Part shown: positions 4,329-9,599 of the stretch, in pieces
How the letters are laid out: each line of letters begins with the position of its first letter
Position numbering within the stretch: position 1 is the stretch's first letter
Virus record (IMG/VR): IMGVR_UViG_3300021373_000228
Span: 1-51,152 of that record
DNA from: a virus
Reading direction: 5' to 3' (one strand)
Length of the DNA: 51,152 nucleotides
Notes under the pieces: model-generated
Told to the model about the DNA's origin: nothing
The model's input: only the letters and a program-made list of their open reading frames with translations
Databases searched by the model: none
Position numbers and translations under genes: made by a program

Positions 4329-4646
4329 ATGAGTTACTTTAAAAAATATGAAAAAGCTTTAAAGGCTGCAGGATATCGCTTAAACGGAAAGGGTGTTTAT
4401 GATGCTCGTGGGAATTGTGCAGCGATGGAAGACCGCTTTGGTACGGCTTATATTAATGATGTGCGAATTAAAAATATCATTACTGCAGAAGAGAGTAAGA
4501 TACTTAATAAAGTTAAGAAGACGGTTAAGAAAGCGACTCCAAAGCTGAAGAAAGTACGTGCGCGTAATGCTGATGGTACTCTTCGTGCTGATGATCCTAG
4601 CACACCTGATGTTAATGAAGCGTGGACATACGTAGAGGATAAGTAA
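4329..4646 (+). CDS. Hypothetical protein, basic with conserved C-terminal motif
   Basis: A 105-residue protein with a Lys-rich centre (KVKKTVKKATPKLKKVRAR) followed by NADGTLRADDPSTPDVNEAW, an ending I recall from several marine phage hypotheticals. It has no enzymatic motif. The ATG follows the upstream TAG by one base, and the stop overlaps the next start (TAATG). Confidence 0.6.
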   Translation: MSYFKKYEKALKAAGYRLNGKGVYDARGNCAAMEDRFGTAYINDVRIKNIITAEESKILNKVKKTVKKATPKLKKVRARNADGTLRADDPSTPDVNEAWTYVEDK

Positions 4647-5005
4647 TGGCACTTAATCAGTTAGGTAGGCCAGCTAGACGAAAATCTGTGTATGGTCATA
4701 ATACAGGAACTACAACAGAGACAATCTATACCTGCCCACCTAACTGTACTACAGAGGTGACATTCATCCATGTACATAACTCTAGTGGTAATACTAGTAT
4801 AGAGATTGAGTGGTATGTTGCTGAAGACAACTACACATCTCACTTCCTAGAGGGTAAAAACCTAGGTGCAGCAGAGTATATTCAGTTTCCTGATGTTGAG
4901 CTTGTATTACAGGCTGGTGATGAAATAAGAGTAACATCTGCATCTGCAGCACATATTGATACCATTATTACAGTTACAGAAACATTTGCTCAAACTAGAT
5001 CATAA
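4646..5005 (+). CDS. Small beta-rich protein, possible virion decoration
   Basis: A 119-residue protein predicted to be mostly beta strand (alternating hydrophobic stretches such as EVTFIHVHNSSGNTSIEIEW and IQFPDVELVLQAGDEIRVTS), ending in a short polar tail. It looks like a small jelly-roll or sandwich protein of the kind that decorates capsids or tails in marine phages. The assignment rests on sequence character and on its place just before the terminase genes. It is coupled to the upstream gene by TAATG. Confidence 0.55.
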   Translation: MALNQLGRPARRKSVYGHNTGTTTETIYTCPPNCTTEVTFIHVHNSSGNTSIEIEWYVAEDNYTSHFLEGKNLGAAEYIQFPDVELVLQAGDEIRVTSASAAHIDTIITVTETFAQTRS

Positions 5006-5084
5006 CGGGTATGCAAAAATAGGTACTACTACCTGACATAACCATAAGTATAACTATCTCCGCACACAAACAAAGGAGATCGTG

Positions 5085-5258
5085 ATGCTTAACTTTCTAA
5101 AACGTGTATTCAAGGCTATTGAAACAGCACAACAAAAACGCGCAGACTACAGACTATTACAAATGCTATCTGAGCGTGAACTACGTGACCTAGGCATTGG
5201 TCGCTCACAAATTAAGGAAATCATCTATGGCGAGGACACTAACGGAAAAGCAGCTTAA
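5085..5258 (+). CDS. DUF1127 (YjiS-like) small protein
   Basis: A 57-residue protein: MLNFLKRVFKAIETAQQKRA, then residues 21-48 with LLQMLSERELRDLGIGRSQI. The LS-x-REL-x-D-(I/L)G-(I/L)-x-R-x-x-I pattern is diagnostic of DUF1127, a small arginine-rich family abundant in Alphaproteobacteria. A strong Shine-Dalgarno AAGGAGAT (5073-5080) precedes the ATG. Its last 32 bases overlap the TerS gene in another frame. In bacteria such proteins have been linked to RNA turnover, and to phosphate and carbon metabolism; in a phage it may redirect host RNA. Host-derived origin is an inference. Confidence 0.8.
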   Translation: MLNFLKRVFKAIETAQQKRADYRLLQMLSERELRDLGIGRSQIKEIIYGEDTNGKAA

Positions 5259-5595
5259 GTTCCTTGAGGTACTATTTGACGAAGCTGGCGGTGATGTTGT
5301 TACAGCTAAGAAACTGGCAGGTTATGCACCTGAGTCCAGCACTGCAGCAATTGTGGAATCTCTAAAAGATGAAATCGCAGATAAAACACGCACTTATTTT
5401 GCTCGTACTGCGCCCAAAGCTGCTATGGCTATGGTTGGCGCTTTATATGATCCTACTGAACTAGGTATCAAAGAAAAGATGGTTGCGGCAAAAGATTTAC
5501 TTGACCGCGCTGGGCTTGGTAAGGTAGATAAGGTAGATGTCACCAGTGGTGGTGGCGTTTTCTATTTACCACCAAAAGAAGGTACGAACGAATAA
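5227..5595 (+). CDS. Terminase small subunit
   Basis: A 122-residue protein from ATG 5227 (AAGGAA seven bases upstream). A longer form from a GTG at 5197 would only read the DUF1127 gene out of frame. Residues 1-45 look like a helix-turn-helix DNA-recognition domain (LTEKQLKFLEVLFDEAGGDV, TAKKLAGYAPES), and the C-terminus ends GGGVFYLPPKEG, a typical TerS tail. TerS binds the packaging site and delivers DNA to TerL. It lies directly upstream of the terminase large-subunit region, and its TAA overlaps the ATA of the next ORF (ATAA). Confidence 0.75.
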   Translation: MARTLTEKQLKFLEVLFDEAGGDVVTAKKLAGYAPESSTAAIVESLKDEIADKTRTYFARTAPKAAMAMVGALYDPTELGIKEKMVAAKDLLDRAGLGKVDKVDVTSGGGVFYLPPKEGTNE

Positions 5596-6023
5596 GTAAA
5601 CCGTTAGTAATCCCTGAGAGGGAGCTTGGGTACTGGCAGTTACCCCTCCCTCCCAAAACACATAACAAAAACTGGCACACAATAGTTCGGGTAACAAAGA
5701 AGATACCGTGGGGCTATGAACAGCATCCAGACAATGATAGGCTTCTTGTACCTATTGAGTCAGAGCTAGAAGCGTTAGAGCTTGCAAAACGACACCTCAG
5801 GCAGTATAGTTACCGTGCGGTAGCTCAATGGTTGAGTAAAGAAACAGGCCGCTACATATCACACATGGGCCTAAAAAAGAGAATCGAAGTTGAGCAAAGA
5901 CGTAGGAAAGCAATTACAATTAAACGCAAGTTTGCCAAGTGGCTCCAAGAAACGCTACACGAGATCGAAAAGCTCGAAAGCCAAGGGGTCGGGGCATACT
6001 CAGAGTCCAGAGAAGACAGTTGA
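5592..6023 (+). CDS. Detached N-terminal domain of the terminase large subunit
   Basis: 143 residues in a frame that contains no upstream ATG, GTG or TTG before residue 81. The natural first codon is ATA at 5592, overlapping the TerS stop as ATAA, with AGAAGG nine bases upstream; a single G in place of A at 5594 would recreate ATGA. It reads SKPLVIPERELGYWQLPLPP, then WHTIVRVTKKIPWGYE and a helix-turn-helix-like part (YSYRAVAQWLSKETGRYISH, about 73-100) with a basic helix. I recall this arrangement at the N-terminus of marine-phage TerL proteins. A TTG at 5832 could start only the last 63 residues. A +1 shift is needed to reach the ATPase. Confidence 0.7.
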   Translation: MSKPLVIPERELGYWQLPLPPKTHNKNWHTIVRVTKKIPWGYEQHPDNDRLLVPIESELEALELAKRHLRQYSYRAVAQWLSKETGRYISHMGLKKRIEVEQRRRKAITIKRKFAKWLQETLHEIEKLESQGVGAYSESREDS

Positions 6024-7485
6024 AACAGTCGCACCCCCAGTAGAGACTGTACCTGCAAAAGTATCTGCTCCTGAGTTTGACGTGGATATTGCACAGGATG
6101 TTGTGTTCAAGCCAAACCCCGGCCCCCAAACATACTTCTTAAGTTCATCTGAACGAGAGGTACTTTATGGTGGGGCAGCAGGCGGTGGCAAATCTTATGC
6201 GATGCTTGCAGACCCGCTGCACGGTTTAAATGATCCTAACTTTAGTGGGCTATTAGTACGCCATACTACAGAGGAACTACGTGAACTAATACAAAAATCT
6301 CAGGAGTTATACCCTCGTGCAGTGCCCGGAATCAAATGGAGTGAGCGTAAATCCCAATGGACTAGTCCTAGGGGTGGGAGACTATGGATGTCTTATCTTG
6401 ATAAAGATCAAGACGTTACTAGGTATCAAGGACAAGCATTTAATTGGATTGGATTTGACGAGCTTACTCAATGGTCTTCACCTTTCGCTTGGGATTATAT
6501 GAGATCACGCTTAAGGTCTGCATCTAAAGACCTTGGGCTATATATGAGAGCTACAACAAACCCCGGTGGCGCAGGACACCAATGGGTAAAGAAAACATGG
6601 ATAGACCCAGCGCCTGCTGGAAAAGCATTTTGGGCAACCAATATAGAAACTGGTGAATTACTAACTTACCCGAAAGGACACAGCCGTGCAGGTGATCCAT
6701 TATTTAAAAGGCGTTTTATTCCAGCTTCTCTGTTTGACAACCCTTACTTGGCAGAAGCTGGTGACTATGAAGCAATGCTTCTCTCGTTGCCTGAACACCA
6801 AAGAAAACAACTCCTCGAAGGAAACTGGGACGTAAATGAAGGAGCAGCTTTCCCTGAGTTTGACAGATCAAAGCATGTCGTGGAAGCTTTTGACGTTCCC
6901 CGATCTTGGGTTAAGTTTAGAAGTTGCGACTACGGTTACGGGTCTTACACAGGCGTTCTCTGGTTCGCTGTTGCACCTGACGAGCAACTCTATGTATACA
7001 GAGAGCTATATTGTTCTAAGGTTACTGCTACAGATTTAGCAGATATGATCTTAGAGATAGAAAAAGATGATGGTGGAATGAGATACGGTGTGCTAGACTC
7101 ATCTTTGTGGCACAACCGTGGCGACACGGGGCCATCCCTAGCAGAGCAGATGATCATGAAGGGGTGCAGATGGCGTCCATCAGATCGCAGTAGAGGCTCT
7201 CGTGTCGCAGGTAAAAACGAAATACATAGACGGTTACAGATAGATGAATTTACTGAGAAGCCTCGTCTTGTATTTATGGATAACTGCACAAACACTATTG
7301 CGCAGATACCAAGCATCCCCTTGGATAAGAAAAACCCAGAGGATGTAGACACCAACGCAGAGGATCACTTATACGATGCTTTACGTTATGGGGTGATGAC
7401 ACGCCCACGCAGCAGCATATGGGATTATAACCCAGCAAAACAACGCACTGGTTTTCAAGCTAGTGATCCTAACTTCGGGTATTAA
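5890..7485 (+). CDS. Terminase large subunit, ATPase and nuclease domains
   Basis: The motor that pumps DNA into the capsid. From a TTG at 5890 it is 531 residues: Walker A GGAAGGGKS (94-102), Walker B WIGFDE (186-191), a coupling motif near TTNPGG, then an RNase H-like nuclease domain with SCDYGYG, GVLDSS and DHLYDALRYG. There is no ATG before the Walker A, the TTG has no evident Shine-Dalgarno, and the first 40 residues look like out-of-frame sequence. The real protein is therefore probably the preceding ORF joined by a +1 shift between about 5975 and 6020; GGG-GTC near 5983 (four Gs) is a candidate slip site. The next gene starts two bases after the stop. Confidence 0.9.
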   Translation: MSKDVGKQLQLNASLPSGSKKRYTRSKSSKAKGSGHTQSPEKTVETVAPPVETVPAKVSAPEFDVDIAQDVVFKPNPGPQTYFLSSSEREVLYGGAAGGGKSYAMLADPLHGLNDPNFSGLLVRHTTEELRELIQKSQELYPRAVPGIKWSERKSQWTSPRGGRLWMSYLDKDQDVTRYQGQAFNWIGFDELTQWSSPFAWDYMRSRLRSASKDLGLYMRATTNPGGAGHQWVKKTWIDPAPAGKAFWATNIETGELLTYPKGHSRAGDPLFKRRFIPASLFDNPYLAEAGDYEAMLLSLPEHQRKQLLEGNWDVNEGAAFPEFDRSKHVVEAFDVPRSWVKFRSCDYGYGSYTGVLWFAVAPDEQLYVYRELYCSKVTATDLADMILEIEKDDGGMRYGVLDSSLWHNRGDTGPSLAEQMIMKGCRWRPSDRSRGSRVAGKNEIHRRLQIDEFTEKPRLVFMDNCTNTIAQIPSIPLDKKNPEDVDTNAEDHLYDALRYGVMTRPRSSIWDYNPAKQRTGFQASDPNFGY

Positions 7486-7487
7486 GA

Positions 7488-9599
7488 ATGGCAGAACAAG
7501 AAGAAATGTTTGAAACAGATGAAATCGTAGCTGCAGAAGACAGTGAAGATTCTATCTTTGAAAACCAAGCTGGCGTAGTTGGCTTTGTTCAGGATCGCTA
7601 CAAACGAGCAGAAGATGCACGTTTTGCTGATGAAGAGCGCTGGTTACGTGCTTATCGCAACTATCGTGGTATCTACAGTTCTGAGGTTCAGTTCACAGAT
7701 ACAGAGAAATCACGTGTATTTGTAAAAGTAACAAAGACTAAAACTCTAGCAGCATATGGACAAATTGTAGATGTATTATTTGGAAATAATCGGTTTCCTC
7801 TTTCTGTTAACCCCTCTGTTCTACCTGATGGCGTTGCTGAGTCAGTACACATAAACGTAGACCCTAACGCAGCACAGGCAGGGCAACAGCTTAACGCTGT
7901 AACTTCAGATGCCCCAGCGCAGCCATACTTACTAGATGGTACAAAAGGGCAGCTACAACCAGGTGAGACTCTTATTGATCTACAACGCCGCCTAGGACCA
8001 GAGCAGAACAAGCTACAAGCTGTCTCTGATAAGATTGTTGAGGGTGACGGTACTACACCTAGCACAGTGACATTCCATCCTGCTATGGTAGCAGCTAAGA
8101 AGATGGAAAAGAAAATTCACGATCAGCTACAAGAGAGTGGTGCTAATACACATCTACGCTCTATGGCTTTCGAGATGGCTCTTCTAGGCACAGGTGTCAT
8201 GAAGGGTCCGTTTGCTGTAGATAAAGAATATCCTAACTGGAATGAAGAGGGTGAGTATGAGCCTCTCATTAAAACAGTACCAGAGTGTAGCCATGTAAGC
8301 GTATGGGATTTCTATCCAGACCCTGAAGCTAAATCTATGCAAGATGCAGAGTATGTGGTAGAGCGTCACAAGATGTCACGCACACAGCTACGCGCTCTAA
8401 AACAGCGTCCATACTTTATGGATGATGCAGTAGATATGGCTGTAGCCAAAGGACCAGATTATGTACAGAAATCTTGGGAAATGGTTATGGAAGATGATGA
8501 CACACAGCCTACATCTGAGCGCTGGGAAGTGTTGGAGTTTTGGGGTTTTGTAGATGTAGAGCTTCTAGAGCAAGCTGGAGTTAATATTCCTAAAGAGCTA
8601 AAAGACCTAGACGAAGTAAACTGTAACGTTTGGACATGTAACGGTGAAGTACTACGTTTTGTATTAAACCCATTCAAGCCTACACGCATTCCTTATTACG
8701 CAACACCATATGAGCATAACCCATACAGCTTCTTTGGTGTAGGTATTGCAGAGAACATGGATGATACGCAGACATTAATGAATGGTTTTATGCGTATGGC
8801 TATTGACAATGCTGCATTATCTGGTAATCTGATTATCGAAGTAGATGAAACCAACCTTGTACCGGGGCAAGACCTAAGTGTCTATCCTGGCAAGGTTTTT
8901 CGTCGTCAAGGTGGTGCCCCGGGTCAGGCAATCTTTGGTACCAAGTTCCCGAATGTTGCACAAGAAAACATGCAACTCTTTGATAAGGCTAGGGTTTTAG
9001 CTGATGAAAGCACTGGATTCCCTAGCTTTGCTCATGGTCAAACTGGCGTGTCGGGCGTTGGTCGTACAGCTTCAGGTATTAGTATGCTTATGTCTGCTGC
9101 TAACGGTTCTATCCGTACAGTAGTTAAGAATGTAGATGATTATCTGATTCGCCCACTAGGTAAAGCTTTCTTCTCATTTAACATGCAGTTTGATTTTGAT
9201 GAATCACTTCGTGGTGACCTAGAGGTTAATGCATCAGGTACAGAAAGCTTAATGGCTAACGAGGTACGTTCCCAGCGCCTAATGCAATTCTTACAGGTAG
9301 CACAGAATCCAGTTCTTGCACCTTTTGCTAAAATGGATTATATTATCCGTGAGATTGCAAAGAGCATGGACCTTGACCCTGACAAGGTTACTAACTCTAT
9401 GCAGGACGCAGCAATCCAAGCAGAAATACTCAAGGGCTTCCAAGCACCACAACCTACGCCTGAGGCTATGGGACAAGGTGTACAGGGTGTCCAAGATACT
9501 ACTGGTGGCGGCGGCGCACAGATGGGCATAGGTACAGCACCGACACCGGGCGAACAAGGATTTACAGGTAATGAGCAACCTCAAGCCGTTGGTCAATAA
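7488..9599 (+). CDS. Portal protein
   Basis: A 703-residue protein, the size of podovirus portals, encoded immediately after TerL. The N-terminal region has the typical helical start (EERWLRAYRNYRGIYSSEV and TKTKTLAAYGQIVDVLF); the centre has portal-like elements (YATPYEHNPYSFFGVGIAEN, MDDTQTLMNGFMRMAIDNAA) and the C-terminal part is helical with a Gln/Gly-rich tail. It forms the dodecameric ring through which DNA enters and leaves and on which the tail is built. The final 29 bases overlap the next gene. Confidence 0.85.
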   Translation: MAEQEEMFETDEIVAAEDSEDSIFENQAGVVGFVQDRYKRAEDARFADEERWLRAYRNYRGIYSSEVQFTDTEKSRVFVKVTKTKTLAAYGQIVDVLFGNNRFPLSVNPSVLPDGVAESVHINVDPNAAQAGQQLNAVTSDAPAQPYLLDGTKGQLQPGETLIDLQRRLGPEQNKLQAVSDKIVEGDGTTPSTVTFHPAMVAAKKMEKKIHDQLQESGANTHLRSMAFEMALLGTGVMKGPFAVDKEYPNWNEEGEYEPLIKTVPECSHVSVWDFYPDPEAKSMQDAEYVVERHKMSRTQLRALKQRPYFMDDAVDMAVAKGPDYVQKSWEMVMEDDDTQPTSERWEVLEFWGFVDVELLEQAGVNIPKELKDLDEVNCNVWTCNGEVLRFVLNPFKPTRIPYYATPYEHNPYSFFGVGIAENMDDTQTLMNGFMRMAIDNAALSGNLIIEVDETNLVPGQDLSVYPGKVFRRQGGAPGQAIFGTKFPNVAQENMQLFDKARVLADESTGFPSFAHGQTGVSGVGRTASGISMLMSAANGSIRTVVKNVDDYLIRPLGKAFFSFNMQFDFDESLRGDLEVNASGTESLMANEVRSQRLMQFLQVAQNPVLAPFAKMDYIIREIAKSMDLDPDKVTNSMQDAAIQAEILKGFQAPQPTPEAMGQGVQGVQDTTGGGGAQMGIGTAPTPGEQGFTGNEQPQAVGQ

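Follow-up and report, generated by a model that had tools for sequence, protein, structure and literature searches.

A conserved ATA codon at the terminase small subunit stop as the probable start of a gene overlapping both terminase genes in HMO-2011-type phages

The window analysed here is the whole 51,152-nt stretch of the virus record IMGVR_UViG_3300021373_000228, and the features of the terminase region described below lie on its + strand. The gene for the terminase small subunit, TerS, runs from ATG 5227 to TAA 5593-5595 (5227..5595; PHROG 2538, E 3e-5). A small DUF1127-like ORF at 5084-5258 overlaps its start by 32 nt, and the counterpart in the isolate CRP-603 is annotated as DUF1127. 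TerS is followed by an open reading frame that we call mid (5592..6023), which extends over 143 codons from ATA to TGA 6021-6023 and encodes a member of a conserved protein family with an N-terminal segment, a helix-turn-helix core and a 41-residue C-terminal helix. The ATA (5592..5594), which we propose as the mid start codon, overlaps the TerS stop as ATAA; 9 nt before it lies a Shine-Dalgarno-like AGAAGG (5577..5582) that also encodes the KEG part of TerS. The frame of the large subunit, TerL, is open over 5875-7485, has 149 nt in common with the mid ORF, and matches large-subunit ATPase profiles with Walker A at ~6172 (Pfam PF03237, PHROG 979, PHROG 2). As the earlier note on this sequence had stated, no ATG precedes Walker A in this frame; TTG is found at 5890 and 5932, in the overlap, and GTG at 6082 and 6103, codons that the note does not mention. 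Counted from TTG 5890 (5890..5892), the putative TerL start codon, TerL comprises 531 codons (5890..7485; Pfam Terminase_6N E 1e-7; PHROG 979 E 4e-58) and its first 134 nt (5890..6023) would be read in two frames, mid in frame 0 and TerL in +1. A purine-rich stretch, AAAAGAGAA (5875..5883), precedes this TTG and is weakly Shine-Dalgarno-like (dG -2.9 in the window). No tRNAs were found in the window.

The earlier note had judged that this ORF codes a sensible protein, and hundreds of HMO-2011-type contigs with mid at the corresponding position bear out that it is a genuine gene. Three other metagenomes each supplied a contig with 99-100% identity over the ORF, relatives of its product are encoded in 306 viral contigs, and searches with the CRP-2, HMO-2011 and CRP-13 homologues yielded many more. 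Among isolates, mid lies between TerS and TerL in CRP-207, CRP-2, CRP-603, HMO-2011, CRP-345, CRP-1, CRP-9 and CRP-13. The layout of CRP-207 is that of the window, including the ATA at the TerS stop, and window positions 4646-7600 share 77% DNA identity with it over 97% of their length. TerS, mid, TerL and portal follow one another as in the HMO-2011-type packaging module, and their products are homologous to those of that module; in 91 of 95 loci the TerL frame is +1 with respect to mid. In the GenBank record of CRP-207 (MZ892987.1), gp62 covers only about the last 52 mid residues and the annotated TerL begins 64 nt beyond the first base of the mid stop codon, with a loss of about 65 residues; both annotations look truncated.

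The mid protein of the window matched nothing in Pfam or PHROG. Its AlphaFold model (pLDDT 78) has a helical core, which we read as a helix-turn-helix, and a long C-terminal helix. Besides uncharacterised phage proteins, a fold search returned weak matches to serine-recombinase DNA-binding domains and to small terminases, and PDB searches by sequence and by fold gave no significant relative. No profile of the recombinase-type or homeodomain-like helix-turn-helix classes scored above its curated cut-off, the nearest match among mid relatives being HTH_32 in two of them at E 0.46. On the other hand, the mid core matches the N-terminal domain of TerLs encoded in a single frame (hhalign probability 98.1%, E 8.8e-14), namely those of CRP-3, CRP-738, CRP-212, CRP-235 and RHph_N3_19. 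These fused N-termini are themselves weakly similar to the homeodomain-like HTH_32 and to the serine-recombinase Recombinase domain (PF13565 at best E 2.5e-4, PF07508 at E 0.009; in the member for which scores are given, neither reaches the cut-off). The ORF had been described as the TerL N-terminal domain placed in a separate frame: the homology holds, but mid is a separate conserved gene and not one half of a frameshifted TerL. The existence of split and fused versions of one domain suggests that mid works with TerL. In the CRP-9 type (L088, L321-L334), most mid proteins are extended at the C-terminus by a segment that contains a zinc-finger-like CPFCG motif, and the DNA for this segment encodes the TerL linker in its second frame.

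To locate the TerL start we used codon alignments of mid in three groups: A, the window and CRP-2 types (131 sequences); B, the HMO-2011 and CRP-1 types (67 sequences); and C, the CRP-13 and CRP-9 types (70 sequences). Columns are numbered from the GLxKR motif of mid, so that TTG 5890 falls at +7. Up to GLxKR, the synonymous rate of mid in groups A and B is mostly near the level of the TerL core, and after the motif it falls to 0.08-0.37 (A) and 0.02-0.41 (B) of that level. Third positions pass from being the most variable in mid codons to being among the least variable (0.442 to 0.109 in A, 0.393 to 0.127 in B), and a single change point fits best at +7 in each of the two groups. This is precisely where the TerL frame bears, at +7/8, TTG in 131 of 131 group A sequences and ATG in 66 of 67 group B sequences, the latter being the annotated TerL start of HMO-2011; the annotated start of ctYwJ313 falls in the homologous column as well. 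The mid residue at this column is V, I or L in group A and N, H or Y in group B and yet the third base of its codon is constantly T, as retaining TTG or ATG would demand. Just upstream, the TerL frame contains stop codons at +1 (129/131) and +5 (97/131). The dG of the Shine-Dalgarno duplex averages -3.9 over the group with TTG and -5.8 over the HMO-2011 group, whose homologous codon is ATG. We read the switch in third-position variability at the TTG 5890 column as the mark of selection on two reading frames at once. Taken together, the conserved TTG/ATG column, the change point, the upstream stops and the annotated starts make TTG 5890 the most likely start of TerL, giving a 134-nt overlap with mid. 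TTG 5932 was considered too, and has no Shine-Dalgarno match; the constraint starts before it.

The frozen synonymous sites could also represent a DNA or RNA element, such as a packaging site or a regulatory motif, acting instead of or besides the TerL frame. Short frozen blocks without dual coding do occur in the CRP-13/CRP-9 group, which speaks for such an element, but in groups A and B the block sets in right at a start codon and RNA folding showed no consensus structure, and we regard this explanation as unlikely. The constraint attributed to dual coding loosens in group A after +28 (ratio about 0.4-0.9). In group C a GTG at +4/5 is invariant (70/70), and the region from +7 to +25 shows no dual-frame constraint. 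The frozen blocks of the L086/L088 group correspond to the mid codons for EELELLEKA and ISHVGLDKRV (ratio 0.11-0.25), outside the dual-coding signal, and group A has a milder synonymous dip at the place of EELELLEKA; these blocks are possible packaging or regulatory DNA motifs.

The start of mid itself is less conventional. As had been noted, its frame is open from the ATA through 143 codons and contains neither ATG nor GTG, nor any TTG, before residue 81: the first canonical starts are TTG 5832 (residue 81) and ATG 5865 (residue 92). Initiation at either would lose at least 80 conserved first residues. Our comparison supports the non-standard start that the earlier note had put forward. All 92 loci without an ATG bear an ATA that overlaps the TerS stop as ATAA or ATAG, in a 4-nt start/stop overlap of the kind expected for translational coupling, although these loci are related and their number is therefore not one of independent events. 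ATA is the sole near-cognate codon common to all of them; it is conserved, and no usable canonical start precedes the conserved coding sequence. The last TerS codon at ATA loci is GAA, CAA, GTA or TTA, its final base always being A. In sister lineages an ATG opens mid, at positions from -11 to +10 as counted from the TerS stop, and where this ATG is at +5 TerS ends in GAG in 56 of 58 loci. Mid keeps one fixed phase to the TerS stop in 92/92 ATA loci, as opposed to a 58/6/1 distribution in ATG loci. The AGAAGG motif yields mean duplex dG values of -5.9 kcal/mol in 76 loci of the window clade and -5.7 in 16 CRP-2-type loci, against a background mean of -2.05 and a 5th percentile of -6.0; since the motif is also coding sequence, its conservation is not independent evidence.

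The ATA state is found in two separate clades of the tree (66 and 15 unique sequences), and on this tree the ATA start arose twice. No ATG was found at the ATA position within the ATA-bearing clades. A scan of viral contigs for the conserved TerS end pattern followed by ATG at that position returned two contigs, neither of which encodes mid; with ATA in the pattern, 71 contigs among the matches listed encode mid in frame. A single A-to-G change would give ATG, and its absence suggests, without proving it, selection for a weak start. The locking of the phase at -1 in every ATA locus would also be expected if mid were produced not by initiation at AUA but as a TerS-mid fusion, through a -1 frameshift at the end of TerS. 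Such a fusion is quite unlikely: some lineages have a stop in the mid frame 10 nt before the TerS stop, no slip site is common to the loci, the last TerS codons vary, and sister lineages begin mid with an ordinary ATG.

TerL had further been thought to need a +1 frameshift, with GGG-GTC at about 5983 as the candidate slip site. We find no support for this need, given that TTG 5890 provides TerL with a likely start of its own and the dual-frame constraint begins exactly there. A programmed shift at GGG-GTC or elsewhere in the overlap, fusing mid and TerL, would agree with the +1 position of TerL relative to mid at nearly all loci, and the single-frame TerLs indicate that the joined product would be functional. 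However, the constraint starts at the start codon, about 31 codons upstream of GGG-GTC, and GGG-GTC is not conserved: close relatives have GGA-GTC in its place, and more distant loci ATC-GGA, ACA-GGC or CTT-GGT. No slip sequence is common to the loci, the site varying both between and within groups. Slippage at the mid stop codon was rejected, the stop contexts varying among relatives, and slippage at the start column would need Ile, Val or Leu codons in one group and Asn, His or Tyr codons in the other. No consensus RNA fold was found in the overlap. In a gene that depends on frameshifting, the downstream frame would be expected to lack a conserved start of its own, whereas here TTG and ATG share one column. 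We consider a frameshift very unlikely. The remaining suggestion, that sequence or assembly errors hide an ATG at 5592 and introduced an indel close to 5985, is conceivable for a metagenomic record but is refuted, since hundreds of independent contigs and also cultured phages have this layout (near-identical contigs from other samples, relatives and the isolate CRP-207 all look alike, and the frames are split in the isolates CRP-2, CRP-603 and HMO-2011 too).

The explanation that we hold to be probable is a TerS-mid-TerL tandem in which AUA re-initiation serves mid and an independent UUG start at 5890 serves TerL. Ribosomes ending TerS at UAA would start anew on the AUA that overlaps this stop (A-UAA), with the AGAAGG 9 nt upstream as a guide, and thus yield the 143-residue helix-turn-helix protein; the AUA probably sets a low mid yield coupled to that of TerS. 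TerL would be initiated independently at UUG 5890 in the +1 frame, its first 44 codons serving as mid codons too. As the counterpart of the N-terminus of single-frame TerLs, mid probably takes part in DNA recognition during packaging, together with TerL and TerS. We further lean, with less assurance, towards the view that AUA evolved at least twice in these abundant marine phages and was kept against ATG as the start of a packaging gene at the TerS stop, fixing a low ratio of mid to TerS and TerL. Gene callers restricted to ATG, GTG and TTG miss mid, and in this case the N-terminus of TerL was cut as well. If true, a conserved AUA start would make the cultured phage CRP-207 a natural system for testing how the subunit ratios of a packaging motor are set by near-cognate starts and by overlaps of stop and start. 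The role of the mid domain can be tested through its split and fused forms.

In the main paper on HMO-2011-type phages, TerS and TerL both appear in the list of core genes, and the word overlap does not occur (PMC9038755). A limited literature search returned no report of a phage with a conserved AUA start. AUA starts are documented in Staphylococcus aureus for infC, ccpN and citZ, where they gave roughly 10-30% of the AUG yield in the fusions tested (PMC13009471). Mid resembles these in combining AUA with an upstream Shine-Dalgarno-like motif, and in being conserved, non-canonical and probably attenuating. It differs in that it is a phage packaging gene whose start overlaps the upstream stop, in having two origins within one phage group, and in that its Shine-Dalgarno motif is ordinary instead of extended; moreover, initiation of mid is deduced from sequence. 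Short start/stop overlaps of the ATGA type couple translation by termination-reinitiation (PMC10666635). The TerS-mid junction has the same A-TRA geometry and likewise joins genes of one complex, and some HMO-2011 relatives do bear ATGA there; at the mid junction of the ATA loci, in contrast, A replaces G, so that the start reads ATA and the stop TAA or TAG. The single-frame TerLs share with mid the homologous N-terminal domain, which in the roseophages lies in mid's position after TerS, but they consist of one continuous frame with a canonical start and neither overlap nor split. Finally, HMO-2011 itself, with phage1322_53 (hypothetical protein) and phage1322_52 (TerL), has the same gene order, overlap frame and TerL start column as the window, and differs in using ATG for both genes, at -5 in the case of the mid homologue.
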